From a virus: a DNA stretch of 54,978 bases. The notes below the pieces were generated by a model. The model was not told the DNA's origin. It did no database searches and saw only the letters and a program-made list of their open reading frames with translations. The stretch covers positions 1-54,978 of IMG/VR virus record IMGVR_UViG_3300023242_000561. One strand, written 5' to 3'. A program made the translations under genes and the position numbers. Below are positions 1,171-41,581 of this stretch, piece by piece; position 1 is the stretch's first letter, and each line of letters begins with the position of its first letter.

Positions 1171-1207
1171 AGAGAAACCCCATCCTAATAAGAATGGGGT
1201 TATCTCT
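1171..1207 (-). terminator. hairpin, possible leftward terminator
   Basis: The stem is AACCCCAT/ATGGGGTT extended by AGAGA/TCTCT, with a single unpaired A and a 10-nt loop. Read on the - strand it is followed by TTTTTACG, a short U-run. On the + strand there is no U-run. It would act on late transcripts that pass the hairpin at 1638-1669. The weak U-run keeps confidence moderate. Confidence 0.45.
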
Positions 1208-1682: not shown

Positions 1683-4600
1683 CTACTTAGAGAATATTTT
1701 TAACCATTTTCTTTTCTCTTCAGGATATTGTGCTTCAAACACATTCTTAAGAAATGATCTTTGTATAACAAACTTCTCAAATGGGTTCTTACCTTTATAA
1801 GGTCCACTTTGTAGCTCATCTGTGAATACAAAACTCTTATAGAAACCTACAACACTATCTAACTGATTAGCTATTGCGGTAGGCGACTTGATTAGATTTA
1901 CAGCTTCTATTGGTGATACCAAAGCAGTAAGTTCTAGTACTGTTTTATGTGCTTGGAACAAAACAAACTGTGATAACCAATCATCATCATCATCATCGTC
2001 AAATTGAGATAAAAGAATCTGAAAAATAGCATACATTAGTGCCATAGCTGCTAATTCTAAAGCAGTTCTTAATAAGTTTCTTTTTTCCATTGGAGATAAC
2101 TTATTCCAATATTCAACAGCTTTTTTACTACCTTCACCACTAAGACGAATACTCATTAATTTACTAACAGCTTTTTGGTTTTCTTTATCTTTAGTTACTA
2201 CATTAAAATAACCTCCTACTAGGTCTTTAAGAACTCTACCAGATGTTCTTAAGTAACCTTCATCTTCCATACCTGTTCTAGGGTTAATACCCTTAGCTTT
2301 CATTCTTGTTGAAATACCGTTAACTAAGAAGTTACGGTGTAGTAAAAGTGTTTGTCCCAAAGCATCTCTACTAACAGCAGACCTGTCTAAACCTGACACT
2401 CTTCCGTCAATCCTATCCCCTATTAAATTCACTTTACCTTTCAATAAAGAAAGTTGTTCTTCAAGTTTTGGAACTTCTTTATATTCCTCTTTAAGTTGAC
2501 GAGTACCTTTTTCATCAATACTGAACATACTCCTAACTGTAGGATAACTCTCCCACTTAGTCATATCTCCACCATTGTTCTTATATTCCTTCTTGCTTAT
2601 AAACTTACCGTCTATCAGTCTATGATAGTTGAGTTGACTTATTACAAGTTGACCTTTAGTAGCATGATCAAATATCTTATACCCACCGAAGAACATATTT
2701 CCCTCATTGATAAAACCCCTTTTTAATTTGTTTATTGAACTATTACTAAATTGTGATACCGCAGTTTCAGTAACTTCAAAGTAATCCATCCACATTTGAA
2801 CTTCAGAAGTCTGTACTTTTGACTCCATATCTGGAATAATCTTAGTAATTAACTCTTTATAATACTCCTGTTTAGATTCTAACTTAGTTCTAGTATCACT
2901 ATATTCTCCAACTATATCTTCAATAGCTCCATATATAGATGAAGTTATTGCTGAAGTAACTATAGTAAATGGATTATTACCTAAGTTGTTTCTTCTAACA
3001 TAAGCTGAGAAAGAAGCTAATATTTTTGATATGTTAATCTGCTTACCAAAGAAAGGTAAGTCTACAGTCATTTCACTTAACTCTTCACCATATACATAAC
3101 CGTCTAAGAATGATGCAAACATCTTTGTTGCATTTTCTGTGTTAGTAGCTTTTTTATTCTTATTTAAGTTAATTCTAGATTCTAATCGGTTTAAAACTAT
3201 ATTAAGATCAGGAGCTATACTAGCCATTCTCTTAAAGTTATGTGCCATGTTTACATGTTTGGCTAATAAGAACGCTATATCCTGAGACATATCACCATCA
3301 ACGTCACTTAGTTTCTTTCTATAATAGACAGGAATCATTCTGTTTAGTTTCTGATTATCTAAATCTATAGAATCATCTCCTTTAAGACCAAACATATCAT
3401 CGTCTTCTCTTGAAAAGATAACGTCTTTAATTGGTTCTTTAATACCCTCCCAACCTTCAGACCAAACTAAGAAACGCTCTAATGGTTGTTTTCTAATTTG
3501 AGGTAATAGAAATAGGTTTCTGCCTGATATTTTATTTTCAGGTAAGGCTCTATCACCTAAAGCTTTAACAGATAGAGTTGTAATATACAACTTCTTCTGA
3601 GCTTCAGTCATACTACTATATTTTTTATTAACCCATTTTTGAGAAGGTAATATCCTTTCATTAGCAAAAATACTACTAGCTTCTTCAAATTCGTCATTCT
3701 TGACAGAGTTTTCTCTCATCCAAGCACCCCATCTTTTAGTGTACATTAAAAGTCTGTTCTGTTTATCTACTTCTGCTGAAGTAACATTAAGTGGAGAAGT
3801 ACTTTCATATTTTTGAAAGAACAAGGCTCTAGTTTCAGATATTTCTTCTTCAACTTCACTATAGCTTTCATAACCAAAAGATTTAGCTAATTCGTTCATT
3901 ACTTCATCTTTACTCTGAAACCAAGCTTCCCAAAGATAGGGTGATAACATATTACCTGTTCTTTTATCATCATCAGAATTTCTTTCATACATGTAGTCCA
4001 GACTATTAACTCCTTCAGCTTTAGCTTCTTTAATTGCATTCGCTAGAGTCTTACTAGCTTCTATAGTAACATCAGAAGCTTCATCTTTTTTAAGTTTAAC
4101 CGCAGCATACATATTACGTAGAATCTTATCATCTACATCAGCCATAGAAGCGAAATTCTTAGATAGTGACCAGATGTCACCTCTTTTTTGTTTCAATTCT
4201 GTACGTATATCTTCTTTATTCTTATACCCACCTCTATCATTCTCCCAAATAAAATTCACAGCACGATCTTCCATCTTATCTATAAGGTGCTGCTTAATTG
4301 TATTAGCCAAACCATTAGCTTGACTTAATGAGTTTGCTGAGTAAGCAGTCAGATCAAATCCATACTTTTTAAATTCTTCTACAGTAACTTCATCATCTTT
4401 TAAATGATGTAGTTTATTAGTAATGTTACTAAAACTAACTACAACATCATGCATATCTACTAGTTCTTTAGCAGTAAAGTCTACATTTTGACCTAGTTCT
4501 TGAAACCTATCTAAGAACTGACTCATATCCTGTATTGCTTTTTCTGCGAATAGAGTAATACTATAAACTTCATTACTCTCACGTATTGCAAACTTCATTC

Positions 4601-7088
4601 TATTTTTAATATCTCTTAACTCACTTGTAGAACCACCTGAGTTTCTAAGATTAATAATAATTGAATTTAGTTCTTCAATGGCCTTTTGAGCAATATTACG
4701 AACCTTTTCTACGTTAGGGTTCTCAAAATCCATATGATCACTAGGGTCTTCTACAGTATTATAGATGTTATCGTCGTTACCATAATCATCTACATCTCTA
4801 TTTGGACTTACTTGAGATACTGAGGTAGCCCCTTGACTAGGGGAAATGCTCGCAACTATTCTTTCTTTCTGAGTTCTAGAAGAATTGTCTGTACCTGTAT
4901 AAACCATTTTACCTGTAGCTACGGAATATACATTTCCTTTATTGGAAACTATATATCGAGTACCATTATATTCAGTAGTGGGATAACTACCTAATACTTC
5001 TAGATTAGAGGGATCAGGTGTTCCTGAAAATTTAGTTCCGTCAGGTCTGACTAACTGTGCTTTACCTGAATCATTAATGTTCCACAATAGATATAACTTT
5101 CCATTATGTCTTACAACACTACCAGATTTGACTTTTTTGTCTTGATCATCAAATAACTTAACTTCATCTTCATTTTTAACTTGATCTCCTAAAGATACAG
5201 TTCTTTCTTCTTGAACTGCTGAAGCCATAGGAGAAGTCTTGTTACTATCTAAGTGACTTGATTGAACAGGATTATCTATTAATTGATCTTTACCTGTATC
5301 AGGATTATTAGAAGAATGAATTACAGTCTTATTACTTCCTCTAGTTACAGCCACATATAAAGCTTGACTTCTTTCTCTATTAGTTCTTCTATCTTTTTGA
5401 TTTAGGAGATTGTCTTCTAATACATATACATTACGATACGTAGAACCTTGAGACTTATGTGCAGTAACTACATATCCATAATCTAGTCTAGGAAAAGCTT
5501 CGGTAGTTAAGAAAGCATGATACTTGTTATACTTATTGTAAAAGTTATCAATAATATTCTGTATTTTTTTTCTACTGGGTCTATCGAGAAACATTATCTG
5601 TTGGCTAACATCACCAGTTAGATTGTTTCTAACATCAATATAAGAACCTGAAAGTCCTTTTATAAAAGCTACTAGATTTCCTTTTTTATCTTTAATTTCT
5701 TTACTAAAATCTTGTACTGGAACAGGTTCACTTATTACAGTATAATCTACTGAGTTTTCAATAATAGGTTCTTTCTTGTTATCTAAGTTTGTAGTATAAG
5801 CAGTTAATTGCTCACCTTTAACAACTAGAGCTTTATCATTAAGACCTAACTTCTGTCTAGCAAACTGATTCATATGGAATACAGACTGCTTTGACTTTTC
5901 ATTAGTTTCATTATTATAAGTAACAATCTTTGTATTCTTAGAATTATTGAGAAAATCTCTTTTCCACATCTCTAATATAACAGTAGCGTTGTTACTAAAT
6001 ATAATTCCTGTGTTTGTATCTTTATCAAATTCAGTAACTCTATCTGAGTCTTTTAAAGGTGAAGCTTTCGCATTATCTCTTAAATCAATATTGGCTACTA
6101 TTCTATCACTAACTTTAACAATAGGTGATTCTTCACCTTGTCTCATTCTTTCAGTAAGCTCAACTAAAGTATGATCAAAAGAAACGCTATCAGAACCATT
6201 TTCACCAATAGGAGGTAGTTGAGCATTATCTCCCATGAATATAACTTTAGCTGAAGGATTCATCCAAGTCTTCATTTCTTTAAACAAGTCTTTTGTTAGC
6301 ATAGAAGCTTCATCCATTACTACAACTCCTGCTTTAGATATAGGAACTCCACCATTTTTTCTAGCCCATAGATCAGGCATAAAACTAAATGTCTTTTCAT
6401 TTAGCTTTATAGATAAGGCAGATTGTATAGTAGACACATCATCACCAGCTTCACCTACATCTTGTAAAACATATTTGGCTTTATGGGTAGGTGCTACATA
6501 CATTAGATTCTTACGGTTGTTCTGTTCCATAAGAACCTTTTTAATAATAGTAGTTTTACCTGTACCAGCTCTACCTTTAAGTGTTGCAAATTGAGCATCA
6601 CTATTATTTAAAAAGTCAGTAAGTTTATCTATGGCTACTTTTTGTTGTTCGTTAGCTTCAACTCCTGGAAAAAGTTCATACTTTGGCTCTATGGTTGTGT
6701 CTTCAACTGTGTAATAAGTAGTAGGACTATCACCTTTTAACTCTTTATTATTTAGATTACGAGTAAATTTAATATGAGGTTCACCATTCGCATCTAGTTC
6801 TTGTAGTTGTGATTGATTCTCACTTACCATAGGGTATAACCACTCACCTATTTTTCTACGAAAACTATTGGAATATACTTCAGCTTTACGTCGTAAAGCT
6901 AAATTTCTATCTCCTGTCTCATTTAATAGTTGTTGGAATAGAATAGATTGCTCCCCATTAGAAGTCATCTCTAGACTATAACCGTTGTTTAATGACCATA
7001 ACGCATAGGCTTTTTCTTTACCTACAGCATTAGTTAGTTCATCAAACTGAGACTTAACAACTTGATCATTTAGATTTGGACAAACCAT
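1683..7088 (-). CDS. SF1 helicase fused to a large virion-type protein (1801 aa)
   Basis: Residues about 140-600 form a complete SF1 (RecD/Dda/Pif1-like) helicase: Walker A GRAGTGKTT (172-180), Walker B MDEAS (258-262), motif III GDNAQLPP (286-293), LTERMRQ (311-317), TAHKSQGS (542-549) and ALYVAVTRG (576-584). All key ATPase residues are present. About 1200 residues follow that are helical, charged and unlike any helicase, with one hydrophobic segment near 1676-1694 and then seven Asp in a row (about 1697-1703). The start overlaps the stop of the RNA polymerase gene (ATGA), so the two are translationally coupled. It is the last gene of the late operon, beside predicted virion cargo. I infer a protein packed in the capsid and injected with the polymerase. 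A non-virion replication helicase is the alternative. Confidence 0.85.
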   Translation of the reverse strand: MVCPNLNDQVVKSQFDELTNAVGKEKAYALWSLNNGYSLEMTSNGEQSILFQQLLNETGDRNLALRRKAEVYSNSFRRKIGEWLYPMVSENQSQLQELDANGEPHIKFTRNLNNKELKGDSPTTYYTVEDTTIEPKYELFPGVEANEQQKVAIDKLTDFLNNSDAQFATLKGRAGTGKTTIIKKVLMEQNNRKNLMYVAPTHKAKYVLQDVGEAGDDVSTIQSALSIKLNEKTFSFMPDLWARKNGGVPISKAGVVVMDEASMLTKDLFKEMKTWMNPSAKVIFMGDNAQLPPIGENGSDSVSFDHTLVELTERMRQGEESPIVKVSDRIVANIDLRDNAKASPLKDSDRVTEFDKDTNTGIIFSNNATVILEMWKRDFLNNSKNTKIVTYNNETNEKSKQSVFHMNQFARQKLGLNDKALVVKGEQLTAYTTNLDNKKEPIIENSVDYTVISEPVPVQDFSKEIKDKKGNLVAFIKGLSGSYIDVRNNLTGDVSQQIMFLDRPSRKKIQNIIDNFYNKYNKYHAFLTTEAFPRLDYGYVVTAHKSQGSTYRNVYVLEDNLLNQKDRRTNRERSQALYVAVTRGSNKTVIHSSNNPDTGKDQLIDNPVQSSHLDSNKTSPMASAVQEERTVSLGDQVKNEDEVKLFDDQDKKVKSGSVVRHNGKLYLLWNINDSGKAQLVRPDGTKFSGTPDPSNLEVLGSYPTTEYNGTRYIVSNKGNVYSVATGKMVYTGTDNSSRTQKERIVASISPSQGATSVSQVSPNRDVDDYGNDDNIYNTVEDPSDHMDFENPNVEKVRNIAQKAIEELNSIIINLRNSGGSTSELRDIKNRMKFAIRESNEVYSITLFAEKAIQDMSQFLDRFQELGQNVDFTAKELVDMHDVVVSFSNITNKLHHLKDDEVTVEEFKKYGFDLTAYSANSLSQANGLANTIKQHLIDKMEDRAVNFIWENDRGGYKNKEDIRTELKQKRGDIWSLSKNFASMADVDDKILRNMYAAVKLKKDEASDVTIEASKTLANAIKEAKAEGVNSLDYMYERNSDDDKRTGNMLSPYLWEAWFQSKDEVMNELAKSFGYESYSEVEEEISETRALFFQKYESTSPLNVTSAEVDKQNRLLMYTKRWGAWMRENSVKNDEFEEASSIFANERILPSQKWVNKKYSSMTEAQKKLYITTLSVKALGDRALPENKISGRNLFLLPQIRKQPLERFLVWSEGWEGIKEPIKDVIFSREDDDMFGLKGDDSIDLDNQKLNRMIPVYYRKKLSDVDGDMSQDIAFLLAKHVNMAHNFKRMASIAPDLNIVLNRLESRINLNKNKKATNTENATKMFASFLDGYVYGEELSEMTVDLPFFGKQINISKILASFSAYVRRNNLGNNPFTIVTSAITSSIYGAIEDIVGEYSDTRTKLESKQEYYKELITKIIPDMESKVQTSEVQMWMDYFEVTETAVSQFSNSSINKLKRGFINEGNMFFGGYKIFDHATKGQLVISQLNYHRLIDGKFISKKEYKNNGGDMTKWESYPTVRSMFSIDEKGTRQLKEEYKEVPKLEEQLSLLKGKVNLIGDRIDGRVSGLDRSAVSRDALGQTLLLHRNFLVNGISTRMKAKGINPRTGMEDEGYLRTSGRVLKDLVGGYFNVVTKDKENQKAVSKLMSIRLSGEGSKKAVEYWNKLSPMEKRNLLRTALELAAMALMYAIFQILLSQFDDDDDDDWLSQFVLFQAHKTVLELTALVSPIEAVNLIKSPTAIANQLDSVVGFYKSFVFTDELQSGPYKGKNPFEKFVIQRSFLKNVFEAQYPEEKRKWLKIFSK

Positions 7089-10000
7089 CAGTTACATATC
7101 TTTTCGTTAAACTTACCTTGTAATAAGAGGTCGTCTGATTGCGTGTCCTCTATATTGTAATTAACATCACCTTCCAAACTTCTATAAGTTATTCCAACAA
7201 TGTTTTTCCTATCCTCAAAACTTATTTCTATTTCTTGTTCTGTTTGAGAATCAAAAGCAATAAACACATTATCATTTTTAACACTTGTTAATCTTAAGTT
7301 CTTTTTGACATCGTTGTGCATGTAACTAATACTTTTAAATGTTTCAACAAAGTCATGAGCATTAAGTGTATTAATGTCATTAAGAGCCTTAACTTCTTGT
7401 GCTTCAGTATATGTGTTCTCTAAAACTCTACCTTCCTGTAATGCTTCTACAGCTAACCTAAACCCTTTAGCTAGTGCTGTGTTTTGAGAAAGATCGACTC
7501 CTAATTTTTTAGCGATAGAAGCTAGGAAATCTAAAACATCTTGAAAGAAACTTCCTAAAAACGTATTACCTTGCAAAGATATAGTTTTTGTGAAACTTCT
7601 GAAGTTTTCATTAGTAAACATATGAGCTACAAACTCAGCTCTATTATCTAGAGCATGAAAATATCTAGAGTTTTCTATTCTTATAGGTCTAGTATCTCCT
7701 TTTTTTCTAGCTTGTTTCGCTTGTTCATACTCCATTAAGTATTTCTCATAAGCTCTCTTACTAGTAGGGCCACCTGTTTTATCATTATTAATATGATCTT
7801 TAATTTTATTCATTAAAGAATCAATCTTATTAACTAACTCTCTAGCTTCTTTAGTAGTAGGATTATTTAATGCTTCTACTGTAATTGAATGAATTATCTC
7901 TTCTAATACCTTCTTATCGAAAGAATCTTCATTATTGAGTTGATTTACATTAATGTATATCTTACCTTCTTTACTATTGTAATTTGATGAATATTGATTA
8001 GTAAACTCAACTTTAGTTTTATTAGTGTTGATATAACCTTTTATAAATCTAGCTAGTTCTTTAAATCCTTCATTCTTACTACCCATTTCTATCTTAGAAA
8101 GTAAGGCACTAACAGAAGCATCTTTATTTAGATCAAGATTATAAGTAGGTTCTGGCATTAACAGACCTTTAGTCAATTCTAATTGACTACGCATCTCTGT
8201 AGGTAAGGCTGTTGAACTATACGTAGAATAGAACTTGTCGTTTCTAGGATTATAAAAAGTATAGTTACCTTTATCATCTAAGAAACCTATCTTAACTACA
8301 CCATTTTCTAATTCTCTTTTAACAAACTTACTTCTAGAATCTAAACTCTTAGTAACTTCATCTTCAAAATTAGGTAAGTATTGTGAATTATGAAATGCGA
8401 ATAAGCCTACAAAATTTTTAACAAAATCACTTTCACTATCTATAGAAGTATTAAAGTTTATACCTCTTAGATATTCATACATCCCTAACTCTCTAAATAA
8501 TTGAGGTGGTATAAACCTAGCGTAACTCTTAGTATATGATAGCGGATTTAATACATACGCCTTAATCAAATCTTTAGCTAACTCTTTAGTATCAGGATTA
8601 GTATATAAAGCCACAAAAGAAATAGAGATACGATCACTATCAACAAGATTACTCTTATCATTAGGATATATCATAACTGAACCACCATTCTTTAGATTTG
8701 ATCTGGATAACATATTTAGAAATAAGTTGTCTGGATATTTCTCTAAAGCTGCACTAACATCTTTGAATAATCCTGATTTATTAAATAACCTACTTCTTAA
8801 ACTATCTACATCTTCTCCTTCAAATATAGGATTGTCATTACTACCGTAGATATAAGCTCTAAAAGCATTCCACATCTGCTTTTCAGCAGAACCTTTATTA
8901 GGTAAATCCTGTAGATACTTTTTCAACATTGTTTTAACTGTAACAAAAAGTGTTGATCTATAAGGGTAGATACTCTTAAACATACCTACACCTTCTTCTA
9001 AAGTAACTCTAGCGACAGAACCTTGAATGTTAGGTTGCTCACCATTAAATAAGTCTTGTAGATTTTGAAGATGTTTAGTATCTTTAACATTCTCCATAGC
9101 TTCAGCTTTAGCTACAGCAGCAAATAGATCAGTACCTATACCAGAAGTATCTGAATATGTTTGAAGAACTGATTGTACTTTACGTAACTCTTCTGATACT
9201 TCAATTAAGTAAGATAATCTTTTCATAATCTCTGAATCAGAAGCTTCCAAGTTATTAAAAGACTTATCATCTATCGGATTAAATACAAACTTACCTTCAC
9301 TATTTCTAAGATTTCCTATGTTTCTATCTTTAATAGTTTTAGCTAATGCTAAACTTTTAATCTTACTAGAATCTAAACTACTATTCTGTAGTTGTAATTC
9401 TTTGAGATTTCTATTATAAGCTAGAACTACAGGTTGATTAAAGAAGTTCTTGATGTCATCTAAGTAAAATCCCATGTGAGCTAGTAGTGAAGCTTCACCT
9501 GAGTTATCGTAACTTAAATTAAGTGCTCCTAATAACGGATCATTTTCATTATCTACAGCAGCATTAAGTAATGCTATAAGTACTGACTTTTTAGGTACTT
9601 CTTTTTTACTAGACCTTCTTGATGCTAAAGACTTAGCTTTAACATTACCTAAACTAAAATTATTTCTAGTTAGTTTAATGTTACTATCTTCTAATAAAGC
9701 ACTAAAAGTTAAGTTTACAGCATATACGCCAATAGCCTGAGATGCATCAGAACCATCTAAAAATCTATCAAATAAAATATCAGGATTGATTAACCAAGAA
9801 TCTCTTTGTCCTTCTCTTCTTCTTTTTAATATTTCATCTCTATACTTAGGTAACTCTCTAGTAGAAGTAGGTCTTATACTTTCTAAGAAACCTTCTTTCG
9901 ATAACATAAGATTTCTTCTTATATCTAACATCTTGTTTCTAGACAACATGTTTTGATAATCTTTATATAGATTATTACCTTTGTCTTGTTGAGTTTCACC

Positions 10001-13000
10001 TAATACATTAGTACCACTTTTCTGGAATAGTTCTTCAAATACTACAGTAGAATCACTAACGGCCTTTAATCTACCGTTATGTTCATACATATATCTGTGA
10101 TATAAGAATAACTTATCCACATCAAAGTCAGAACCCATTTGAGCAACTAAATCTCTAGATGCAATTACCATATTAGAATTAGGTAAGAAACCTGCTATCT
10201 CCACATAAGTCATAGATGAATGTGCAGAAGTCGGAACCCTAAAACCAAAAGCTTCTAATACTGACTGATCTATTCTCGATAAGTCTAACATCATCCTACC
10301 ATCTTTCATGACGGTATATTCAGACATGTCTATCTTAGTAGACTCTCCTGTATCTATGTTAGGCATAGAGAAGTCTTTAGGTACAAGCACCTGACCAGGA
10401 GCTACTTTATATTCACCATTTCTTGCTTTCTCAGCACTAAACTGATCAGCAGGTATCTCACTACCATCATTGTTAACAAAACGCATAGGTTTTAAACCTG
10501 TAGTTCTGTCAAACTTGTCTGTAAATATTATACGAGACTTACCTGAAGATTTTTCGTTATTACCGATAAAACCTTGTTCAGAAACTAATATAAGTTGTGA
10601 ACCAAATGTTTCCTGCTTGATAACATTATTACGTATCATACCTACTATAACTGATTCATATATATCAGCTCTAGGGTGTAATGCTAAATCTACTTCAAAT
10701 ACTTCACCATTAATATCATCATCAATAACATTTAACGCTTCTTCTTCTGCTGAAGTTAATCTACCATCTCTAGCTTGTTTAAGTAATTGTTTACGAAGTT
10801 TACGTACATCAATAGATTCTGAATTAGGAACCATTATGTCATTCTTAAATCTATCTAAACCTTGTAAACTAAACTCAAGAATACCTTTCATAAAGTCTTC
10901 TTTCATCTTATTTACTTCAGGAGTATTAGGCATACCTTGAAAGATTTGTACTTTCTCCTGAGCAGCTATCTTAGTTTTCTGAGTCTTTTTGCTAGGGTTA
11001 TCTTGTTGTATTCCTAAGTATTTTCTAGGAAGTACATAAGCATCTCCAAACTCTCCATCAACGAACTTTCCATCAGACCAACCTTCAAATACTTTAACGG
11101 CTGAAGATTTAATTGCTGTTTTATATGCAGCTCTTACTGATCTAACTCTACCTAATTTTTTAAACGATTCAGCTTCTCGTTTCTCCATCTTAATACGTAA
11201 CTTATCAATTTCAAAGTCAGCAGTAAGTTCAGGATTAAGCATATAACTTGAAGACTTAATATATTCTTTAACTTCAAATCCTTGATCTGTTATACTAAAT
11301 CCTGAGTAAACAGGTTTAATAGGAGATGATTTTTCTAAGAACAACTCTAAATAGTTTTCATTTTCAGTACCTTCAGCTCTAAGAACTGAAAACAGTTCAT
11401 CCATATAATAGTGATCACCTCTAGTTATAGCATCTGTATATACTCTATCTATAGCTTCCCACATTCTAGTAGGAATTTGACCATCATAGTAAAGAGTTCT
11501 GAAGTGTTCTCTAACAGTAGTCATTTCCTGAGCATCAGCAGATTCAATATTTCTATATTGATCAGCTTCTTCTTTAGATAATAGTGCATCATATTGATAC
11601 TGTATCTGAGAAGGTCTAGGATCATCATTAAGTGCTAGTAACTCGAAATCATAATCATTATCTGGAACAACATTACTTTTAGAAGGAGTACTTAACGATG
11701 TTAATCTTTTGAAGAAGTTATCAGCACTTTTATCTATAGATGAAACACTGTCACCACCTTTAGAATAAGAAGCAGGATCACCTAAGAATGTAGATTGCAT
11801 ATTTATTTGAAACAAAATATCGTTAACCACATACTGTGCAACAAACTCATTAAAATTAGTTTTCTCAGAAACACCTTTAGCTAAGTTAGCTTTAGTTATT
11901 CCTAATTCCTTAAACTGTTTAATCTTATCATTTATAAGATTATTAACCTCTTCTTGTATCTTGTCAGCAATTAAATTTCTTACTGTCTTACCGTCTTCAG
12001 ATACTTGTTCATCTAATGATTTTAAAGTAAGATCGTCATTCCATATTTCATCAGTATTACCACCATATTTACTATGATTAAGTCCTGTGAACTTATAGAA
12101 TTTATTAGCTTTCTTATATTGATCAGGTATTAGGTTTTTATCTTTAGCATTTTGAATACCTAATATTCTATTTATTTCTCCCATAGCAGCTTCAAACATA
12201 AGTCTTCTACCTCCTGCTGATAAACTAACTTGAGTATTATCAGGATTGTCAGCATAAATTACATTTAGTCCTACATCATAAGTAGGTGCAGTAACTACTA
12301 AAGCTCTAATTTTACCTACAATAGGAAATAAGAATCTAGCTACTCTACCATTAGCTTTCTGTTTAGAGAACAACATTAACTTTGTCTTCTCTATAGATTT
12401 TTTATCTTGTTGTCCAACACCTAATCCATACTTACCTGTTTCATCAAACTTAGATGAATCAAAAGGTACTATTTCAAAGTTATCTCTCATGATAGCTTGA
12501 TCTATAGCCCTAACTCTAATACCTTTTTCATCTAAATACTCTTTAGAAGCTAACTTCAATAACCAGTTTTGATAAACAGGACTAACCCCTTCCTCATAGA
12601 AGTAACCTGAAAATAAACTCTTTCTAAGTTTATCCTCAATACCTACTTCATTCATAAGGTCTTTCATCATTCTTGAATAGAACTTATGATGCTCAATAGT
12701 ATGTTGAAGACTACCTCTACCATTACGTACACTAAGGGTATAGTAGTTATTACTATTCTCAGATTCCATAAAAGCGATTTTCTCTACTATACTAGAGTCT
12801 AGAAATTCAGGATTATTATTCTGTAGCTTATCATAAACTTCTTTTAATCCAAACTGACTAGCAGTAAAAACTAACTTAGGATTAAGAATACTTTTTTTAC
12901 TTATAGTAATACCATTTTGAGATATTTGAAAAGCAGTACTGTCAGAAATATTAATTCCAATATAACCCAATAATGTTTTTATTTGTTGAGGAGTATATTC

Positions 13001-16000
13001 AGTTTGATTAGACATAGCGTTGAAAGAATCCATGAATTTTTTCTTCATGTTTTTATAATTCTCACTATTTACATCACCTACTATTAGTCCATCTTTAATT
13101 ATACCTGTACCATTAAGTAAGATGTTGCTATTCCAAATTTCAACAATTTGTCTTGTTAATCCAAATTGATCTGAACGTAATACTTGACTTCTAGCATTCT
13201 CAATAACTGAAATTAAATTAGACTTAGTTTTATTAAAAAAGTTAGCTAATTCTATCTGAAGTCTAGGTTTATCAGGAGTAGGGTATTGATCTATATGTTT
13301 TAGAAATGCTCTTAAATGAGTCTTCTTTTCAGAACTAGCTTTATCAGCTATCAGTCTTATTAACTCGTCATAGTTTTCTACTTTATCCGCAGTTAAATCC
13401 ATAAGGTCGTTAAGAAGAACATCAGCTTGAACAAAACTTCTTAAACCGAAAGCTCCTTTACCAGCAGGAACATAAAACAATAAATGTTTTAGTCTTGTAG
13501 ACATAGTAGCCCTTTGATCTATTGAACCATCTTGATCATAGTAGTTACTTACCGTATAACCATCTAGTTCATTTATATCAAATTCTTCTGATTCAGTTTC
13601 ATCAAAATCCTGATCTCTTCTACTTATTAGTTGTTGTGCTTCTAATTGTCTTTTAATAAGAATACTAACGTCAAAACTGTTAAGTAATATTTTACTTAAT
13701 ACTTCTTCTTGATATGAACCTAAAGGTAATGTTTTTCTCAATTGTGTTAACTTTCTAAAATAGGTATTTAACAATGAAGTTAAATCATTGTCACCTCTAG
13801 TAGCTCTATTTACAATAAAGAAAATACCTTGATTTACAACATCTTGTAGAGAACGATTATCTATAAAATCTAAAAGACCAGCAGCTTTAATGAGACTAGC
13901 TCTTTCTTCATAAGGGTCTTCTATAGTATTAAAAGTAGAATCATCATCTTCTAAATCTTCACCTAATAAATCATCAAAACTTTCATCAGAAGCATTACCT
14001 TCTAAACCAAACATTTTGTTTAGTAAATCACCTGTAGGGTCTTTGGATGTTGTTTGTTCATTATATAGTTCAATACTGAGTTCATTAATTCTTTCAGCTT
14101 TATTTGAAGCAATACTCTGTTCTCTTGAAGTTAATGTTTGACCTTTTATATTTTTATTAATAATAGATAATAAAAAGGAATCATCTATTTCACCAGAATC
14201 AACATATTTATTATATACTTCATCGGAGATATCTTGATTTTCACCTTCAACACTGTTAGGTACAGGTACAGCTCTAGCTACATTAGTCATAGAAGCAGGA
14301 GGTACAGCACCTTCAAAGTTTAATAATAATCTTTCTGCTCTAGTGTAATGAAAGAAGTTACCACTAGGACTTCTTTGTTCTATTACATTAGTCTTAGTAT
14401 TATTAAGTACAAATGATTTATAACTATCAATTGGCCTACCGTCAGCACCTAAGTCTTTAGATACTTCATAAGTACCATCTTCATTTTTACTTATGATTAC
14501 CGTATTACCATAACCTTCAAAGTTTTCTTTAACTATGTTGATATTGGTTTTTTGTAACAGACTATTTAAAAAACCCTTTCTAGAGTTGAAATCTCCTATA
14601 TTTCTCAACTGAATAATCTGATTACCAGCAGGACTTTTATAACCTATGTTAATTACAGGTCTACCTTCTTCTTGAGTTAGTGAAAAGAACACATCTCTAT
14701 TAGATACTTTAGCTAGTGCTGCAAATTCTGATTCATTTTGAAATTTATCAACATGAACAAAATACTTTAAGAACTTTTCAAACTTTTCTATTTGTGAAGT
14801 AAGATTAGATACTTCAGAAACAGCATCTAAATCCGCAGCAGCGTTGAGAATATTGTTGATACTATTCTTGTCTTCAGGGGAGGTATTAGGATCACCTAAC
14901 TTAAAGAACATTTCCATACCATTACTAACAGTATTTGCATATTCCGCTTTCAAAGTCATTGTCTCTATGGGTACAGGTCTAATACCAGCAGGAGTAGGTA
15001 ATAAAACTACAGTACTTCCTACAGCAATACTATCTACCTTAGCGATAGTTTCAATAACCTCACCTCTATTATTCTTAAAACCTTGATGTGTCTTTACAGC
15101 AAACTCTATATTAGGATTGAGAAAAGCTATAGCACTAAGTACGTTACCTTCAGGTACATCAGGAAAGAATTTTCTATCTTCCTTTACCGCAATCCAACCT
15201 TTAGTAAAACCTAATACTGGAACAATAAGCCTGTCATTGTTATTAGGCATTAAGCTCATAAGTGAAGCAAACTGTTCTCTTATTTCTTTACCGTAATGTT
15301 CTTCTATGTTTTTTAATAAAGTTCCGTTCTTAACAGTACCTATCTTTCGTCTATCTCTAGTCCAGACAATTATCTGAATACTACCATCACTTTTCGTTTC
15401 TCTTTGAAGTTCAACGGTATCACCATACTTTAATGCGAATACTGTTTCAGCTAGAGAAGGATCATTGAGAGTTCCATCTTTTGCAGTATTTAAAGAAGAT
15501 ACAGGTATTATACTATTTACAGCATACGATCTTCTACCTTCACTACCTACTTCAGATTCTTCTGAAATATTTTCTTTATTATTAATAGGTTTACTATTAC
15601 CATCAGTACCTTTAGGTATAGTATTACCTGTTATTGTAACTTCAAGTTTTATATCTTGAGTTTTACTAGGTGGAGTAGGTTTGTCAGTTTTCCTTCTAGT
15701 TTTCCTTCTAGTTTTCCTTTTAGGTTTACTAGGTGGAGTAGGTTTGTCAGTTTTCCTTTTAGGTTTACTAGGTGGAGTAGGTTTGTCAGTTTTCTCTTTA
15801 GGTGATGAAGTGAGTGTTAGAAGTCTGTCAAAATCTTCCTCAGTAGCTAATTGTTTACCTTCGCTTCTAAGTTGTTCTACCGCTTTTATAAATTCTTCAT
15901 CTGCTTCATTATTAACAATACCCTGCTCTTTAGCCATTAACACAGCCTCAGCATTTCTTTCAGCCGTCTTAGCGAATGCTTCAAGTGTGTTAATAGTATC

Positions 16001-18337
16001 TTCATCAGCGTTCTTAATATTCTGACTGATAATCGCAAATATGTTTTTAATTTCTTTTTCTTCTTCTCTAATGTTTTTGTCTAACTGTTCTTGACGATTG
16101 ATAGCATCTTCATCACCTTCAACATCATTAGGAAAAAAATTATCAAAATCTTCATCAGATTCTTCTGAAGCGTTAGGAGAACCAATAGGAGAAGCTTCAT
16201 CAGGTTTTACTATTTTTGTATTAGTTATAACACCTACTTTCTTATTCTTCTGTGCTGCTTTCTGTGCTTCCTCTTCTTGCTTTACCTTCTCAACTTTATT
16301 AAGAACTTTATCAATGTCTTTTATTATTGCTTCTTTATATACCTCATGTATATTAGAATTACGAACTTTATTCTTTACACTTTTAGCAGCCTTCTCTACA
16401 CTTTCCGTATCTTTGTCTTTACGAATAGTATCAAAATCACCTATAATATCAGCAAAAGTTTGTTGAGTTTCCTTACTTTTAAGATTGTCAATTACTTCTT
16501 GATGTTGTTGTATTGACTTATTAACTGAAGCTCTTTTATTCTTGATTTGTCTTCTTTTAGCATATTGTTCAGAAGATATAACTCCTATTAGATAGGCTTC
16601 TACGGTTTGTCTAGTACCTGCATTTTCAGTACGTTCTAATCTAGCACTAAGTCCTTCAATGTAAGCATCTAGATTTCCTGAATCTTCAAGAACTCTATCA
16701 ATGTCTGATAGATTAATATCTTTTAATATCTCAAATGCAGTACTCTCTTCTTTAATTCCTGAAAGGTCTAAAACATTACTCTTTATATCAGTTAATGTTT
16801 CACTAAGCTCTTTATTTAAATCATTCTTATGTTCATTTAAAGATTCAATTACAGCAGTAAATCTAGTTATATCAGAAGCTACTGCTCCGTATTTAAGATT
16901 GTCTTCATATTGTCTAGCATAATTAGAAAGTTTCTGACTAGCCTTTGCAGCTTTTAGTCTAGAAGCTTGAGGTAACTTCTCATCAGCAGCTACTTTATCA
17001 TAAGCTTCTTGTAAGAAAGGTAGAGTACCATCATCAAAAGAATTAATTGCTTGAGAAGCTAATAGCCTATTCTCATACAAAGCTATCTTATTTTTATCAC
17101 CTGATTGTGTAGCTTTCTCTAAGTTTTCTATATCAGCTACATGATCAAATAAAGCTTCTGAAAATTCTTTAGGACTAATAGCATTACTATCATAAATAGA
17201 CTCTATGGCAGTTTGTATTTTATTGTATTCTTCGTTTCTCTTTTTACCACCTATAACATATCTAAGACCTTTACTTATTCCTGTTTGTAAACCACCACCT
17301 AAAGCACCTGATACACCTACAGCAAGACCTTCTTTAGTAAATATAGAACCTATAGCACTACCTCCTAAACTATTTTCTTGTTGACCTATTTTACTTTTAC
17401 CTAAAGCTATTCCATAAGAAGACGAATATAAATTAACTTCTTCTTCAAAAAACTCTTGCCCCATTTCAAAAGGAACAGATAAAGCACCCTGACGTACTAG
17501 ATTCTTTCTAGCTTGTACGGTAGCTACTTTAGCAGCTACACCTAATGTAGTTAGTCTTTTAACTTCTCTAGCGTAAGCACTACGTAATCCAGAACTACCC
17601 GTCTTAAGTAATGCACCAGCTGAAGTCAAGTTAAGTAATATATTAGCACGGTTTTTAGCAATTACTCCTGATGCTGCTTCAGCAGCATAAGCTCTAGCAG
17701 TATCCTTATCTAATCCTTCTTCTGCATATAAGTCCATCATTTGATCATAAACTTGAGATGCTTCAGAAGCTCCTTCTGCTTGATTAAGCGTAATAGCATT
17801 TAATCCAACACCTAATATAGTAGCCATAATACCTGATATACCTGAGGAAGCTATAGCTGTACCAATAATAAAACCACTTACCGCACCAGCACCTACGAAA
17901 CCTATAGCTGATTCACCTATATTAGCTACAGTTTTAGACCAGAACTTAGGATCAGCAGGATCCCATACTTCATTAGGATTCTTATTATATATAGGATAAT
18001 CTTCTCTAATATCTTGTTTTATTTCTTGAGCTTTCCTAGCTATAGGATTACCTACTTCATCATCTTGATTAATATAGTCCTCAAAGTCAGCCATGTTTGA
18101 GAGATATTCAACAACAGATATAGCCCCATTGATACTCATCTGAGCACCTACGTTCATAGTAGTATCCCAAAAACCTTGATTACGAGATTGGTGACTATAT
18201 ATATCACCTTCACTAGGAAGCCAATTCCCAGCATATCTAGCATCTATGTTTTCACCTATATACGCACTACCACTCTTAAACAGTGGGTTTACTGCATGTT
18301 GAGAAGCTCTAACTTCACTTAGAGGTTTTTTAATCAT
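7088..18337 (-). CDS. giant virion RNA polymerase, crAss type (3749 aa)
   Basis: The catalytic double-psi barrel signature is visible: RVPTSAH (2700-2706), then IAGFLP, then GSDFDVDKLF with the metal-binding DxDxD at 2737-2741. This parallels the R-P-T-x-H...NADFDGD pattern of cellular RNA polymerase beta-prime. Crass-like virion polymerases (for example that of Cellulophaga phage phi14:2) carry such a DxDxD loop and are injected for early transcription. N-terminal residues 145-183 are hydrophobic and Gly/Ala-rich, suggesting a membrane-interacting ejection segment. A Lys/Pro-rich repeated linker sits near 846-893. Near the C-terminus, LEEIIHS (H3483) and AEFVAH (E3568) resemble a zincin metallopeptidase with the first His replaced by Glu. 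The length far exceeds a minimal polymerase, so several virion domains are fused. Start at 18337 follows a 20-nt gap. Confidence 0.9.
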   Translation of the reverse strand: MIKKPLSEVRASQHAVNPLFKSGSAYIGENIDARYAGNWLPSEGDIYSHQSRNQGFWDTTMNVGAQMSINGAISVVEYLSNMADFEDYINQDDEVGNPIARKAQEIKQDIREDYPIYNKNPNEVWDPADPKFWSKTVANIGESAIGFVGAGAVSGFIIGTAIASSGISGIMATILGVGLNAITLNQAEGASEASQVYDQMMDLYAEEGLDKDTARAYAAEAASGVIAKNRANILLNLTSAGALLKTGSSGLRSAYAREVKRLTTLGVAAKVATVQARKNLVRQGALSVPFEMGQEFFEEEVNLYSSSYGIALGKSKIGQQENSLGGSAIGSIFTKEGLAVGVSGALGGGLQTGISKGLRYVIGGKKRNEEYNKIQTAIESIYDSNAISPKEFSEALFDHVADIENLEKATQSGDKNKIALYENRLLASQAINSFDDGTLPFLQEAYDKVAADEKLPQASRLKAAKASQKLSNYARQYEDNLKYGAVASDITRFTAVIESLNEHKNDLNKELSETLTDIKSNVLDLSGIKEESTAFEILKDINLSDIDRVLEDSGNLDAYIEGLSARLERTENAGTRQTVEAYLIGVISSEQYAKRRQIKNKRASVNKSIQQHQEVIDNLKSKETQQTFADIIGDFDTIRKDKDTESVEKAAKSVKNKVRNSNIHEVYKEAIIKDIDKVLNKVEKVKQEEEAQKAAQKNKKVGVITNTKIVKPDEASPIGSPNASEESDEDFDNFFPNDVEGDEDAINRQEQLDKNIREEEKEIKNIFAIISQNIKNADEDTINTLEAFAKTAERNAEAVLMAKEQGIVNNEADEEFIKAVEQLRSEGKQLATEEDFDRLLTLTSSPKEKTDKPTPPSKPKRKTDKPTPPSKPKRKTRRKTRRKTDKPTPPSKTQDIKLEVTITGNTIPKGTDGNSKPINNKENISEESEVGSEGRRSYAVNSIIPVSSLNTAKDGTLNDPSLAETVFALKYGDTVELQRETKSDGSIQIIVWTRDRRKIGTVKNGTLLKNIEEHYGKEIREQFASLMSLMPNNNDRLIVPVLGFTKGWIAVKEDRKFFPDVPEGNVLSAIAFLNPNIEFAVKTHQGFKNNRGEVIETIAKVDSIAVGSTVVLLPTPAGIRPVPIETMTLKAEYANTVSNGMEMFFKLGDPNTSPEDKNSINNILNAAADLDAVSEVSNLTSQIEKFEKFLKYFVHVDKFQNESEFAALAKVSNRDVFFSLTQEEGRPVINIGYKSPAGNQIIQLRNIGDFNSRKGFLNSLLQKTNINIVKENFEGYGNTVIISKNEDGTYEVSKDLGADGRPIDSYKSFVLNNTKTNVIEQRSPSGNFFHYTRAERLLLNFEGAVPPASMTNVARAVPVPNSVEGENQDISDEVYNKYVDSGEIDDSFLLSIINKNIKGQTLTSREQSIASNKAERINELSIELYNEQTTSKDPTGDLLNKMFGLEGNASDESFDDLLGEDLEDDDSTFNTIEDPYEERASLIKAAGLLDFIDNRSLQDVVNQGIFFIVNRATRGDNDLTSLLNTYFRKLTQLRKTLPLGSYQEEVLSKILLNSFDVSILIKRQLEAQQLISRRDQDFDETESEEFDINELDGYTVSNYYDQDGSIDQRATMSTRLKHLLFYVPAGKGAFGLRSFVQADVLLNDLMDLTADKVENYDELIRLIADKASSEKKTHLRAFLKHIDQYPTPDKPRLQIELANFFNKTKSNLISVIENARSQVLRSDQFGLTRQIVEIWNSNILLNGTGIIKDGLIVGDVNSENYKNMKKKFMDSFNAMSNQTEYTPQQIKTLLGYIGINISDSTAFQISQNGITISKKSILNPKLVFTASQFGLKEVYDKLQNNNPEFLDSSIVEKIAFMESENSNNYYTLSVRNGRGSLQHTIEHHKFYSRMMKDLMNEVGIEDKLRKSLFSGYFYEEGVSPVYQNWLLKLASKEYLDEKGIRVRAIDQAIMRDNFEIVPFDSSKFDETGKYGLGVGQQDKKSIEKTKLMLFSKQKANGRVARFLFPIVGKIRALVVTAPTYDVGLNVIYADNPDNTQVSLSAGGRRLMFEAAMGEINRILGIQNAKDKNLIPDQYKKANKFYKFTGLNHSKYGGNTDEIWNDDLTLKSLDEQVSEDGKTVRNLIADKIQEEVNNLINDKIKQFKELGITKANLAKGVSEKTNFNEFVAQYVVNDILFQINMQSTFLGDPASYSKGGDSVSSIDKSADNFFKRLTSLSTPSKSNVVPDNDYDFELLALNDDPRPSQIQYQYDALLSKEEADQYRNIESADAQEMTTVREHFRTLYYDGQIPTRMWEAIDRVYTDAITRGDHYYMDELFSVLRAEGTENENYLELFLEKSSPIKPVYSGFSITDQGFEVKEYIKSSSYMLNPELTADFEIDKLRIKMEKREAESFKKLGRVRSVRAAYKTAIKSSAVKVFEGWSDGKFVDGEFGDAYVLPRKYLGIQQDNPSKKTQKTKIAAQEKVQIFQGMPNTPEVNKMKEDFMKGILEFSLQGLDRFKNDIMVPNSESIDVRKLRKQLLKQARDGRLTSAEEEALNVIDDDINGEVFEVDLALHPRADIYESVIVGMIRNNVIKQETFGSQLILVSEQGFIGNNEKSSGKSRIIFTDKFDRTTGLKPMRFVNNDGSEIPADQFSAEKARNGEYKVAPGQVLVPKDFSMPNIDTGESTKIDMSEYTVMKDGRMMLDLSRIDQSVLEAFGFRVPTSAHSSMTYVEIAGFLPNSNMVIASRDLVAQMGSDFDVDKLFLYHRYMYEHNGRLKAVSDSTVVFEELFQKSGTNVLGETQQDKGNNLYKDYQNMLSRNKMLDIRRNLMLSKEGFLESIRPTSTRELPKYRDEILKRRREGQRDSWLINPDILFDRFLDGSDASQAIGVYAVNLTFSALLEDSNIKLTRNNFSLGNVKAKSLASRRSSKKEVPKKSVLIALLNAAVDNENDPLLGALNLSYDNSGEASLLAHMGFYLDDIKNFFNQPVVLAYNRNLKELQLQNSSLDSSKIKSLALAKTIKDRNIGNLRNSEGKFVFNPIDDKSFNNLEASDSEIMKRLSYLIEVSEELRKVQSVLQTYSDTSGIGTDLFAAVAKAEAMENVKDTKHLQNLQDLFNGEQPNIQGSVARVTLEEGVGMFKSIYPYRSTLFVTVKTMLKKYLQDLPNKGSAEKQMWNAFRAYIYGSNDNPIFEGEDVDSLRSRLFNKSGLFKDVSAALEKYPDNLFLNMLSRSNLKNGGSVMIYPNDKSNLVDSDRISISFVALYTNPDTKELAKDLIKAYVLNPLSYTKSYARFIPPQLFRELGMYEYLRGINFNTSIDSESDFVKNFVGLFAFHNSQYLPNFEDEVTKSLDSRSKFVKRELENGVVKIGFLDDKGNYTFYNPRNDKFYSTYSSTALPTEMRSQLELTKGLLMPEPTYNLDLNKDASVSALLSKIEMGSKNEGFKELARFIKGYINTNKTKVEFTNQYSSNYNSKEGKIYINVNQLNNEDSFDKKVLEEIIHSITVEALNNPTTKEARELVNKIDSLMNKIKDHINNDKTGGPTSKRAYEKYLMEYEQAKQARKKGDTRPIRIENSRYFHALDNRAEFVAHMFTNENFRSFTKTISLQGNTFLGSFFQDVLDFLASIAKKLGVDLSQNTALAKGFRLAVEALQEGRVLENTYTEAQEVKALNDINTLNAHDFVETFKSISYMHNDVKKNLRLTSVKNDNVFIAFDSQTEQEIEISFEDRKNIVGITYRSLEGDVNYNIEDTQSDDLLLQGKFNEKICN
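15661..15800 (-). repeat. in-frame tandem repeat encoding Lys/Pro linker
   Basis: Three copies of a unit containing ACTAGGTGGAGTAGGTTTGT lie in the polymerase gene, with extra short TTTTCCTTCTAG units between. They encode KPTPPSKPKRKTD-type repeats plus RRKTRRKT (residues about 846-893). The segment is strongly basic and unstructured, a likely hinge or nucleic-acid-binding linker between the N-terminal virion part and the polymerase. Tandem DNA repeats make its length prone to change. Confidence 0.85.
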
Positions 18338-32759: not shown

Positions 32760-35700
32760 TTAACTAATTATAAATGTTGAACCTATCTGTAAATAACCAA
32801 TTCCTAATAAAGCAAAAAAGTTTAATCCTATTTTTGTAATAAGATAATTTCTTATCTTCAATCTTTCATCGGCATCTAATATATTATCATACTTATAAGC
32901 TCCTGCTATATACCCATTGAATGGTAATGAGTCATCTCCTAAAACCCCTATTTTATCAAATGTAGTAGCCCCTCCAATTAAACCTATATTCGCTTCTGTA
33001 ACATCACTGGTTAAGAGATCAATTAAATCACCTAAATAAATATTGGCAGTTCCATCATTTTCTACTTGTATTGAAAAAACATACCATTCATCATTTAATA
33101 AAGTAGTATCTCCAATTAATGATGTAGCTACAGCCCCTATTTCGTTTGTTACCCTCAATTTACTACTTGATAAATCAATAGTAAATCCATCCCCTGCTGT
33201 TCGGTTAGACCATATTACTTGATTTGCAATAACATCATTAGACTTGAACATACCTATAATAGAGAATTGAGCTGTATTTAAATCTCCAATAGAACCGCCC
33301 AAAACCACTCCCTCATGACTGTATTCATTTTTATTTAACAAGCCCTCTCCCCAACTATATTGAACAGGATTATTAAATACATCAATAATAGCAGTTGGTG
33401 AATTAGACAAGACTAAGCTCGAATTTGAAAAAGTACCAAAGTATTCCGACGCTACTGAATTTGTTAAATCTTCAAAATCATGTCCTGAATAAGAATGTTC
33501 TAAAACACCCTCTATGCTATGTGTGTATGATAATATTAATCCATGAAAATAGAAATCTGCCGTTGCTCTTCTAAAGCCAAGATTGTATTGAGTAGAAACC
33601 CAATCAACAGGTGCTGAAAGTGCAATTACATCAGGAACACCATTGATTGTAGCGGTTACCTCTTGATCTGCTTGACTCCATGACAAAGTAATATCATATC
33701 TATTTCCAACAACCATTGTCGTATTATTGAATATGGCTTGATTAACATTATTAGCAGAACCTCCCCATCTGAATTGTAGTCTTCCCCCTGAATTAATGTA
33801 TAAAACATATACAGAAGTCGCACCTGAAAGTAGTGCACTGTTAGAGCCTAATGTAAATGGAACTATATTAAATGTTAATTCCCAATCTTCTGCGGTTAAT
33901 AAGTCTGCTAAATCTCCTAAATAAACAGCGTTAGAACTTCCATTGAATTGCTTATAATTAGATAATCCATGTAAATCTGACTGGATTCCGTAATTAGTTA
34001 CTATAGATGCAATACTACTTCCTGTCGTTGGGGCGTTATTGTCATTTCCTGAATAGTCAAATACTATTTTTCCTGCTCCTGAAATATTTCCCTCACACAT
34101 AGGTGCTATTAAAACCGCCGTCTGATTTATTAAATCGTTCGGGGTCAAATAAGTCGATGTTTCTAAAACAGAAGAAAATAAGCTATTCATAACAAAATCA
34201 CCATAGGCAGCCGCTATTCTACCAATTTCTAAATCATTGGCATCTATATTTGCAATAATCTCTACAAATGATGGGTCTGTTGTAATAGTTGTTGTTTCAA
34301 CACCATTGACTTTTATGGTTCCTGAAACTCCTGTTAGAGTTAAAACTCCTGACATTGCTTCTAAGTTAATACTGCCACTCCATTGTAATATTTTTTCAGT
34401 TGTAGTGTCTAAGTTTAGCCAAAAAGATGTGTATCCAATCGTTCCTATATTACCAAATAGTATAGCATCTGAATTAGTACTTTGAAAATCTATCCCACCG
34501 CCACTTAATATCTGTGCATCTGGTAATGCAGTACCTACAAATGCTGGTATAGTGTTACCGAATAAATCAGTAGAACCTACTTTCAATACATTGATAATGT
34601 TAGGCCCGTTAATAAATGTTATAAATTGATCTCCAACTAAACCAGTAACGGTTCTTTGGTTATTAAAATCTACATATCTAATCTTTCCTTTATAATAACC
34701 TACTCCACTTCTACCACCTATAGTAAGGATAGAACCTAGCATAGCTGCGTTAATTAAATCCTTTTCTTCTATTAAAACACCATCTATTGTAAGAGATGTT
34801 TTAGTTCCTCCTTCTACATCAAATCTAATAGTGTGGAAATTATCATCAAAATAAGATAAATCAATAGAACTAAATATTAAATCATCATCTAATAAAGTGT
34901 TGTATTTAATAGTTCCATTTCCTCTTACTGATACGTTGTCTAAAGATGAACTTCCAGATAAAAAAACTTCATCACCATTATCTAAACTTGGAAGCGTTAA
35001 CCTAATTTCTACATATCCATTATTAACATCAGTCGGAGCTACGTCATTAAAAGAAATAGAGTCATTTATTCCATCAAAATCATAATATTGATTCCTTTCA
35101 TCTTCATTAACTAGATAACCTACAATAGGTGCAAATACTGTAAGATCACTAGTACATGATACTGTTGCATTCAATCTATCTGGTGAGTAGTCTAATACTA
35201 AATTACCATCTTCTGCAATACCCTCTTGCATAAAGAAAGCTCCTTTAACAGCAGAAGTTTGTACATAGGTTCTTAGTTGAGAAGTGGTTAGCTCTTTAGT
35301 TGATAACCCATCATTAGACATGATAAAGTCTTTGATAGATACATCTCCATAAATACCACCAGTAGCATAGTAAGCTAAGTCAACGCCTAATAGAACACCT
35401 ATTGAATTAACTATTCTTACGTGATGCCATACGCCTTCTGACATAGTAGTTGTTTCTACATCATCTACATAGATAGTAGTAACACCTGATCCACCAACTC
35501 TAGTTATTGTATTAGTAGTTAGATTGAAGTTGGAAGCAATACCTTTAAAACCAAATAGCATCTCTGTAGCTGTATCTGCTTTAACCCAAAAGTTTATAGT
35601 GGTATAGCTAGTAGCTCTGTTATGTATAGATAATGTATCAGAATTAGCTGCTGTAAAGTCTAAAGCGTAAGCAACTTGCTTAGGAGGTGATGTATTAACT

Positions 35701-35849: not shown

Positions 35850-35858
35850 ATTATATAT

Positions 35859-36143
35859 TTAATCTTTACCTATATAAACTGTTCCGCTAGATAGTTGAAT
35901 ATCTTTAATTGGTATTCCTAAATAGAAACCAGGCTTCCATGATTCACTAGCACTAGGTCCTGTAAAAGAAGTATTACCTGTATCTAGTGAGGTGAATGTT
36001 GCTTCTTCAGCAACTAGAATACCATAACCATTAACATTTTCATGTAATGTGGTATCACCTATTCTTATAGTACCTTTATCAAAAGACACTCTTATTAAAA
36101 GCTTTTGTAGAAACTTAACTATTTCTCCTGTCAGTGTGTTCAT
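35859..36143 (-). CDS. small structural-block protein (94 aa), hypothetical
   Basis: The 94-aa product starts MNTLTGEIVKFLQKLLIRVS (amphipathic helix) and continues with beta-type segments and Gly/Thr-rich turns (ATFTSLDTGNTSFTGPSASE). It lies 10 nt before the lectin gene and 5 nt after the 96-aa gene. The place directly before the large adhesin suggests a small adaptor or fibre-base protein, which is inference. No domain is recognised. Confidence 0.6.
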   Translation of the reverse strand: MNTLTGEIVKFLQKLLIRVSFDKGTIRIGDTTLHENVNGYGILVAEEATFTSLDTGNTSFTGPSASESWKPGFYLGIPIKDIQLSSGTVYIGKD

Positions 36144-36148
36144 AATTA

Positions 36149-36439
36149 TTAAATTAAAGTTCCATCAAGTTCATCAACTCCTCTATCATACATTTCAGAT
36201 ATTATATTATCTAAGTCAGTAGTATAGAAGTTTATTAATTCCACACCTGTAAATAAAACATAAATATCATCTTGTTCAGACTTACTTCTCTTACCTCTTA
36301 TAGACTTGTTCATTACTTTATCACCAAGTATATCTACTCTAGTTTTACTAGCAGTTGTTACAGCAGCGATATTTGTATTAAGATTAGCAGCCACAATTTG
36401 ATTGTTTACATTCTCTACAATAGCGTTTGATTCTATCAA
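36149..36439 (-). CDS. small structural-block protein (96 aa), hypothetical
   Basis: The 96-aa product begins with an Asn/Val/Ala-rich helix-like stretch (ENVNNQIVAANLNTNIAAVT), has a basic middle (NKSIRGKRSKSEQDD) and an acidic end. Its start lies 56 nt inside the 3' end of the 380-aa gene, in another frame. The next Met is at residue 42, so the overlap appears real, unless the gene uses a non-ATG start. A minor tail component is likely from context. Confidence 0.55.
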   Translation of the reverse strand: MIESNAIVENVNNQIVAANLNTNIAAVTTASKTRVDILGDKVMNKSIRGKRSKSEQDDIYVLFTGVELINFYTTDLDNIISEMYDRGVDELDGTLI

Positions 36440-38300: not shown

Positions 38301-38302
38301 GA

Positions 38303-41568: not shown

Positions 41569-41581
41569 TACAACAATTTAA

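Follow-up and report, generated by a model that had tools for sequence, protein, structure and literature searches.

Organization of the locus

The window (the whole stretch of DNA analysed, 54,978 nucleotides, positions 1 to 54,978 of the IMG/VR record IMGVR_UViG_3300023242_000561) carries on its minus strand an uninterrupted ORF of 1801 codons that lies directly after a giant virion RNA polymerase (RNAP) gene and closes the late operon as its last large ORF (Table 1). A chance ORF was ruled out by the 1801 codons and by the homologous modules found throughout. An earlier inspection, here termed the sequence-only reading, had described the product as a complete SF1 helicase module (residues 140-600) fused to a 1200-residue virion-type protein with a late hydrophobic segment and poly-Asp, encoded by the last gene of a late operon and ATGA-coupled to the gene of a virion RNA polymerase. 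The operon position and the identity of the upstream gene were borne out; the junction, however, reads TGATG and not ATGA, the RNAP stop and the start of the helicase ORF sharing a single base.

Table 1 Features of the helicase-cargo locus (window coordinates)
Positions	Strand	Feature	Details
1176..1201	-	Terminator-like hairpin downstream of the operon	11 pairs, T-rich tail; consensus match only
1683..7088	-	1801-aa ORF	Cargo head module, SF1B helicase and gp49/gp65-like cargo module
1686..3629	-	C-terminal cargo module	Residues 1154-1801; conserved in crAss001 gp49, phi14:2 gp65 and phi4:1 gp35
1977..2078	-	Conserved hydrophobic helix, then DD..W (poly-Asp) motif	Residues 1671-1704
3630..5303	-	Middle region	Residues 596-1153; part (710-1074) weakly similar to cr118_1 gp15
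5304..6680	-	SF1B Dda-like helicase domain (predicted)	Residues ~137-595; motifs all intact
6549..6575	-	Walker A, GRAGTGKTT	Residues 172-180
6741..7088	-	N-terminal head module (MVCPNL...)	Residues 1-116; common to gp49-like ORF starts, cr118_1 and cr52_1
7080..7082	-	Codon of Cys3	Sole cysteine of the 1801-aa protein
7086..7090	-	TGATG	Overlap of RNAP stop and helicase ORF start
7088..18337	-	Virion RNA polymerase ORF	3749 aa; homologue of the phi14:2 gp66 core
7094..7096	-	Codon of Cys3748	Sole cysteine of the RNAP, penultimate residue
10112..10135	-	RNAP catalytic motif, GSDFDVDK	RNAP residues 2735-2742

In the human gut, few groups of viruses are as abundant as the crassviruses. Crass-type TerL, portal and major capsid proteins, together with the giant DxDxD RNAP, place the window in Crassvirales. 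Suoliviridae are among the best TerL matches, at only 30-36% identity, and no relative has a TerL more than 36% identical to that of the window, except for a contig that is 100% identical and comes from the same virus. A core profile of the GSDFDxDK domain, built without phi14:2, matches phi14:2 gp66, a two-barrel virion RNAP, at 6.5e-125 and also finds the RNAP of the window, for which PHROGs and Pfam searches returned no matches. The cargo-family alignment was too divergent to serve as collection query, and alignments of TerL, of the head module and of the helicase were used instead.

The helicase domain

By its motifs, profile match and predicted fold, the domain at residues ~137-595 is a complete SF1B (Dda-like) helicase whose activity, ATP-driven 5'-to-3' unwinding, is predicted. 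All SF1 motifs are present, which bears out the complete module of the sequence-only reading: besides Walker A (Table 1), the protein has APTHKA (199-204), MDEASM (258-263), GDNAQLPP (286-293), HKSQGST (544-550) and YVAVTRG (578-584), so that Walker A and B and SF1 motifs III, V and VI are intact. The domain matches the PHROG of Dda-like helicases, phrog_325 (E 5e-75), and Pfam finds AAA_30 (8e-23) and UvrD_C_2 (9e-9). In an AlphaFold2 model of residues 1-640 the helicase core has a pLDDT of about 90, and the best PDB match of this model is T4 Dda (3UPU, E 5e-26). While motifs and predicted fold are held in common, T4 Dda is a free enzyme of ~440 aa, whereas the helicase of the window is embedded in a cargo protein of 1801 aa.

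The helicase is flanked by modules of a virion cargo family

Judged by sequence homology, both ends of the protein (residues 1-116 and 1154-1801) are modules of the cargo family that is annotated as "RNA-polymerase-associated" in crassviruses. The head of the protein is 52% identical over 79 aa (residues 1-79) to the start of cr118_1 gp15; further on, residues 736-1788 align with crAss001 gp49 (E 8e-42), 1185-1738 with cr118_1 gp15 and 1191-1776 with phi4:1 gp35, and the cargo-family profile matches phi14:2 gp65 (E 2.4e-68). The late hydrophobic segment and the poly-Asp do exist; they are the hydrophobic helix and the DD..W motif that are conserved in the gp49/gp65-type C-terminal family. The "virion-type" part of the sequence-only reading is thus upheld by homology to virion cargo, while its novelty is not, the family being the known gp49/gp65 one. 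Structure prediction, which had been suggested for the entire part beyond the helicase, was carried out for residues 1150-1801 only (AlphaFold2, nine sequences) and gave a pLDDT of 44.5, too poor to yield a usable fold, and the model was left out of fold searches. Pfam recognized no named polyvalent domain (LPD, ART or MPTase) in the protein.

crAss001 gp49, phi14:2 gp65 and phi4:1 gp35 have the same ~640-residue C-terminal module, the same hydrophobic helix with DD..W and, like the protein of the window, their only cysteine near the N-terminus; crAss001 gp49 and phi14:2 gp65 also follow the virion RNAP, as does the window protein. They differ from it in having no helicase, with total lengths of 1349-1914 aa.

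crAss001 gp47, gp49 and gp50 were detected in virions (PMC6235969; PMC10172136), and the records of phi14:2 gp65, gp66 and gp67 and of phi4:1 gp35, gp37 and gp38 bear "experimental MS/MS" notes. Homologues of the C-terminal part are therefore virion proteins by mass spectrometry, and not the non-virion replication proteins that would have spoken against packaging. Since its flanks are homologous to crAss001 gp49, phi14:2 gp65 and phi4:1 gp35, all virion-detected, the helicase-bearing protein is very probably packaged together with the RNAP. Relatives that carry the helicase on the RNAP chain itself, and the pair of terminal cysteines, strengthen this reading.

The place of the helicase in related phages

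Twelve other genomes of the survey have the helicase on the RNAP polypeptide itself, C-terminal to the catalytic motif; they do not count as 12 independent cases, two of them (G063 and G064) being almost the same. The 12 are cr118_1 and cr50_1 (Suoliviridae) and the IMG/VR contigs G048, G049, G051 and G058-G064; in all of them the next ORF carries the cargo module, which in G048 and G051 was detected by whole-record search only. The giants of cr118_1 (gp14-gp15) and cr50_1 resemble the window in that the same helicase family adjoins the same RNAP and cargo modules, but there the helicase forms the C-terminus of the RNAP polypeptide, whereas here it resides in the downstream one. RNAP and cargo module are a single polypeptide in p-crAssphage, jaberico, G016 and G033, which by sequence is a Rosetta-stone link between the two.

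In the replication blocks of p-crAssphage, jaberico and cr127_1 a related helicase stands as a gene of its own, and the first two phages carry this helicase in that stand-alone form only. A whole-genome search left the helicase family unmatched in crAss001, phi4:1, cr128, cr85, cr113, cr52 and others. With many crassviruses lacking the helicase or having only the stand-alone gene, crassvirus transcription does not depend on a virion helicase.

Phylogenetically, the helicase of the window groups with the RNAP-fused helicases of G048 and G049 (support 97/90), inside a wider RNAP-fused set (97/91) and apart from the stand-alone Dda proteins; it is 39% identical to that of G048. Residues 3456-3638 of the window RNAP match residues 1252-1435 of the G048 protein, whose helicase begins near residue 1511; past this matching region the window RNAP runs on for some 110 residues and then ends. 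On these alignments the module order (RNAP, helicase, gp49-like) is unchanged, and the polypeptide break falls before the helicase here and after it in the relatives. The break, with the CPN head module, would have moved from after to before the helicase; equivalently, a helicase that terminates the RNAP polypeptide in relatives would have come to lie inside a cargo protein of the gp49/gp65 family. The search for the same fusion in other crAss-like phages, proposed as a check, thus gave a divided answer: the identical layout was absent, while a helicase on the RNAP chain was present in the 12 genomes. Other phages, too, carry a helicase on virion cargo; what sets this one apart, among the genomes surveyed, is the location of the helicase on the downstream polypeptide, of which no other example was found. 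The crassvirus literature searched does not describe a helicase-RNAP fusion, and two GenBank records label giant ORFs "exonuclease V" and "DNA helicase".

In cr52_1 (L129:13468-18177), the cargo-protein slot that holds the helicase in the window contains an ART-PolyVal domain (3.9e-9), which suggests that the slot accepts different enzymes. The RNAP giant of G010 (L123) holds a degraded-looking SF1 helicase (AAA_30, 3.5e-7) in its N-terminal half, a long way ahead of the catalytic motif.

Cysteines at the ends of cargo polypeptides

The RNAP and the helicase-cargo protein together contain two cysteines in 5,550 residues, and these lie at the facing ends of the two polypeptides (Table 1). Similar placements occur in phi14:2 (gp67, only Cys1797, the last residue; gp66, only Cys3 and Cys2179; gp65, only Cys3), in phi4:1 (gp38, only Cys1957, the last residue; gp37, only Cys4 and Cys516; gp35, only Cys3), in crAss001 (gp47, only Cys2339 of 2341; gp50, Cys5, 1334 and 2404; gp49, only Cys5) and in the RNAP of FPSV-S29 (only Cys4418, of 4419 residues).

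Cysteines were counted in 75 adjacent ORF pairs (each ORF of at least 400 aa) from 36 Crassvirales loci, a tail cysteine being defined as one within the last 12 residues and a head cysteine as one within the first 8. Tail and head cysteine occurred together in 37 pairs, neither occurred in 37, the head cysteine alone in 1 and the tail cysteine alone in 0 (Fisher p 1.1e-20, a value inflated by genome relatedness, yet divergence is great and the break places differ). The head-only exception is the cr106_1 RNAP, the partner of which is encoded on the other strand and ends in KECLE. A held-out set fetched later gave 6 pairs with both, 11 with neither, none with the tail cysteine alone and 2 with the head cysteine alone; in both of the latter the only cysteine of the upstream protein lies 18-20 residues before its end, just past the fixed cut-off. 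Tail-head pairs were seen in the window and in L003, L004, L121, L122, L242-L252 and L263-L267, in giants that have hardly any other cysteine. Two chains are fully fused, those of G016 (4627 aa, 0 Cys) and G033, and have no cysteine at either end.

Three other causes were rejected. General cysteine abundance would not produce the pattern, the internal frequency being just 0.048%; native ligation at an exposed N-terminal cysteine does not fit cysteines at positions 3-6 instead of 2; and a constraint on DNA or overlap at the gene junction is contradicted by the gp47-like proteins of crAss001, cr85, cr106 and cr128, which end in cysteine although their genes are on the opposite strand. Because these opposite-strand proteins obey it, the rule concerns proteins, not gene junctions. 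Literature searches on crassvirus cargo cysteines found nothing.

We propose that Cys3748 of the RNAP and Cys3 of the cargo protein join these two giant proteins inside the virion, most likely by an interchain disulfide, which would permit ordered threading and release in the reducing cytoplasm; from the positions of the cysteines we regard this as likely, though the assembly of virions in a reducing cytoplasm counts against it. A rather unlikely alternative is that the terminal cysteines coordinate a metal for docking, or attach the proteins to some other part of the virion, instead of bonding consecutive polypeptides. It draws on the statistical nature of the cysteine pairing and on the exact places of the terminal cysteines, which vary by several residues between proteins. 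With one cysteine per end, however, a junction would offer a metal no more than two ligands; tail and head cysteines co-occur, and the two fully fused chains have neither. Disulfides have moreover been shown between other proteins of the crAss001 virion (PMC10172136).

Generalized, the disulfide reading makes it fairly likely that the virion cargo of crassviruses is one continuous covalent chain, in which disulfides would rejoin every polypeptide break so that the cargo leaves as a single string in fixed order and comes apart in the cytoplasm. The string would consist of the ejection proteins, the virion RNAP, the helicase and the gp49-like protein, passing in that order through the narrow tail, and proteins linked tail to head, most simply by disulfide, would be the equivalent of the single-polypeptide versions. 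Bayfield et al. propose storage of the cargo close to the portal and its extrusion, N-terminus leading, in a partly unfolded state (PMC10172136). The cysteine rule would offer a directly testable mechanism by which giant cargo is kept in order while being drawn through a channel less than 50 A wide.

Three small ORFs touch on this pattern. In G039 a 328-aa ORF between RNAP and cargo protein (L273:7944-8930), with cysteines only at 3 and 325, looks as if it were a small extra bead of the chain. phi4:1 gp36 (L004:11806-12165), 119 aa long and without terminal cysteine, stands between the signature-bearing gp37 and gp35 and is probably an inserted gene outside the chain. The cargo protein of csAssE-Sib seems to be split by a frame change into a 281-aa ORF (L006:11467-12312), which has the head Cys5, and a 1885-aa ORF (12212-17869) with the remainder.

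Proposed packaging and role of the helicase

The whole is best explained, with a probability of roughly 0.6, by a cargo protein with an embedded SF1B helicase that is co-packaged with the RNAP, cysteine-linked to it and aids its transcription. In the phage of the window such a linkage would join the RNAP to the helicase-cargo protein, and both would be injected physically joined; with two cysteines in 5,550 residues, this phage would be the purest case of the proposed chain. We put forward, tentatively, that in the new host the helicase beside the polymerase may separate or translocate the incoming double-stranded DNA, allowing the virion RNAP to start on the early genes and travel along them; the "start-up machine" of the sequence-only reading is, for helicase and polymerase alike, a role that we infer. 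N4 is thought to depend on host gyrase for the access of its virion RNAP to double-stranded DNA. The N4 virion RNAP is reported to be inactive on native DNA in vitro and to transcribe only denatured DNA (PMC12633501), which makes a strand-opening partner plausible. Delivery of a helicase along with the RNAP would be one means of opening its template, either at this point or as the DNA enters, and, if true, would answer how virion polymerases reach double-stranded incoming DNA.

Dda-type enzymes translocate along DNA, and SF1B enzymes work on single strands. The former property, and a fusion that puts the helicase in ejected cargo, would suit a different, unlikely role, in which the packaged helicase, placed behind the RNAP at the inner membrane, acts as a DNA-entry motor that pulls or ratchets the genome in and does not open promoters. 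The latter property counts against a motor, the incoming DNA being double-stranded, as do the many crassviruses without this helicase. In favour of a motor, the authors of the P23-45 work suggest that in fused virion RNAPs the translocation of the genome is coupled to transcription (PMC10770324).

The N4 virion RNAP and the polyvalent ejected proteins (Iyer 2017, PMC5512222), P1 DarB among them, are likewise injected giants built of several domains, of which the enzymatic ones are exchangeable, though no sequence homology to them was detected in the window protein. The N4 enzyme is a single chain in which no helicase is described, whereas the window splits RNAP and helicase-cargo into two polypeptides, and P1 DarB combines a methylase with an SF2 helicase, unlike the SF1B helicase of the window.

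That the helicase is a late-expressed replication or recombination enzyme, fused by accident and either left unpackaged or active only in the producing cell, would accord with the stand-alone relatives in the replication blocks of other crassviruses; we consider it improbable, as the helicase groups with RNAP-fused and not with stand-alone helicases, its fusion partner belongs to a family detected in virions (PMC10172136; MS/MS notes of the records), and fusion with virion polypeptides recurs in many genomes. An assembly chimera is very improbable: although the in-frame fusion is seen on a single contig and covered by none other, the 5.4-kb frame is unbroken, head, helicase and tail each match crassvirus proteins, the head bears the expected lone cysteine, and the window RNAP lacks exactly the helicase that is present at that place in G048.

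Viral contigs scanned with single proteins revealed no close relative of the fusion, and exact-DNA scans across both domain boundaries no second contig covering it. The IMG/VR contig 3300035698_004706 is of the same virus and 99.96% identical to the window, over 35366-49512 only. The cargo genes of cr113_1 (L010), cr52_1 (L015) and MT835560 (L011) contain many TAG codons read as sense; those of the window are free of them.
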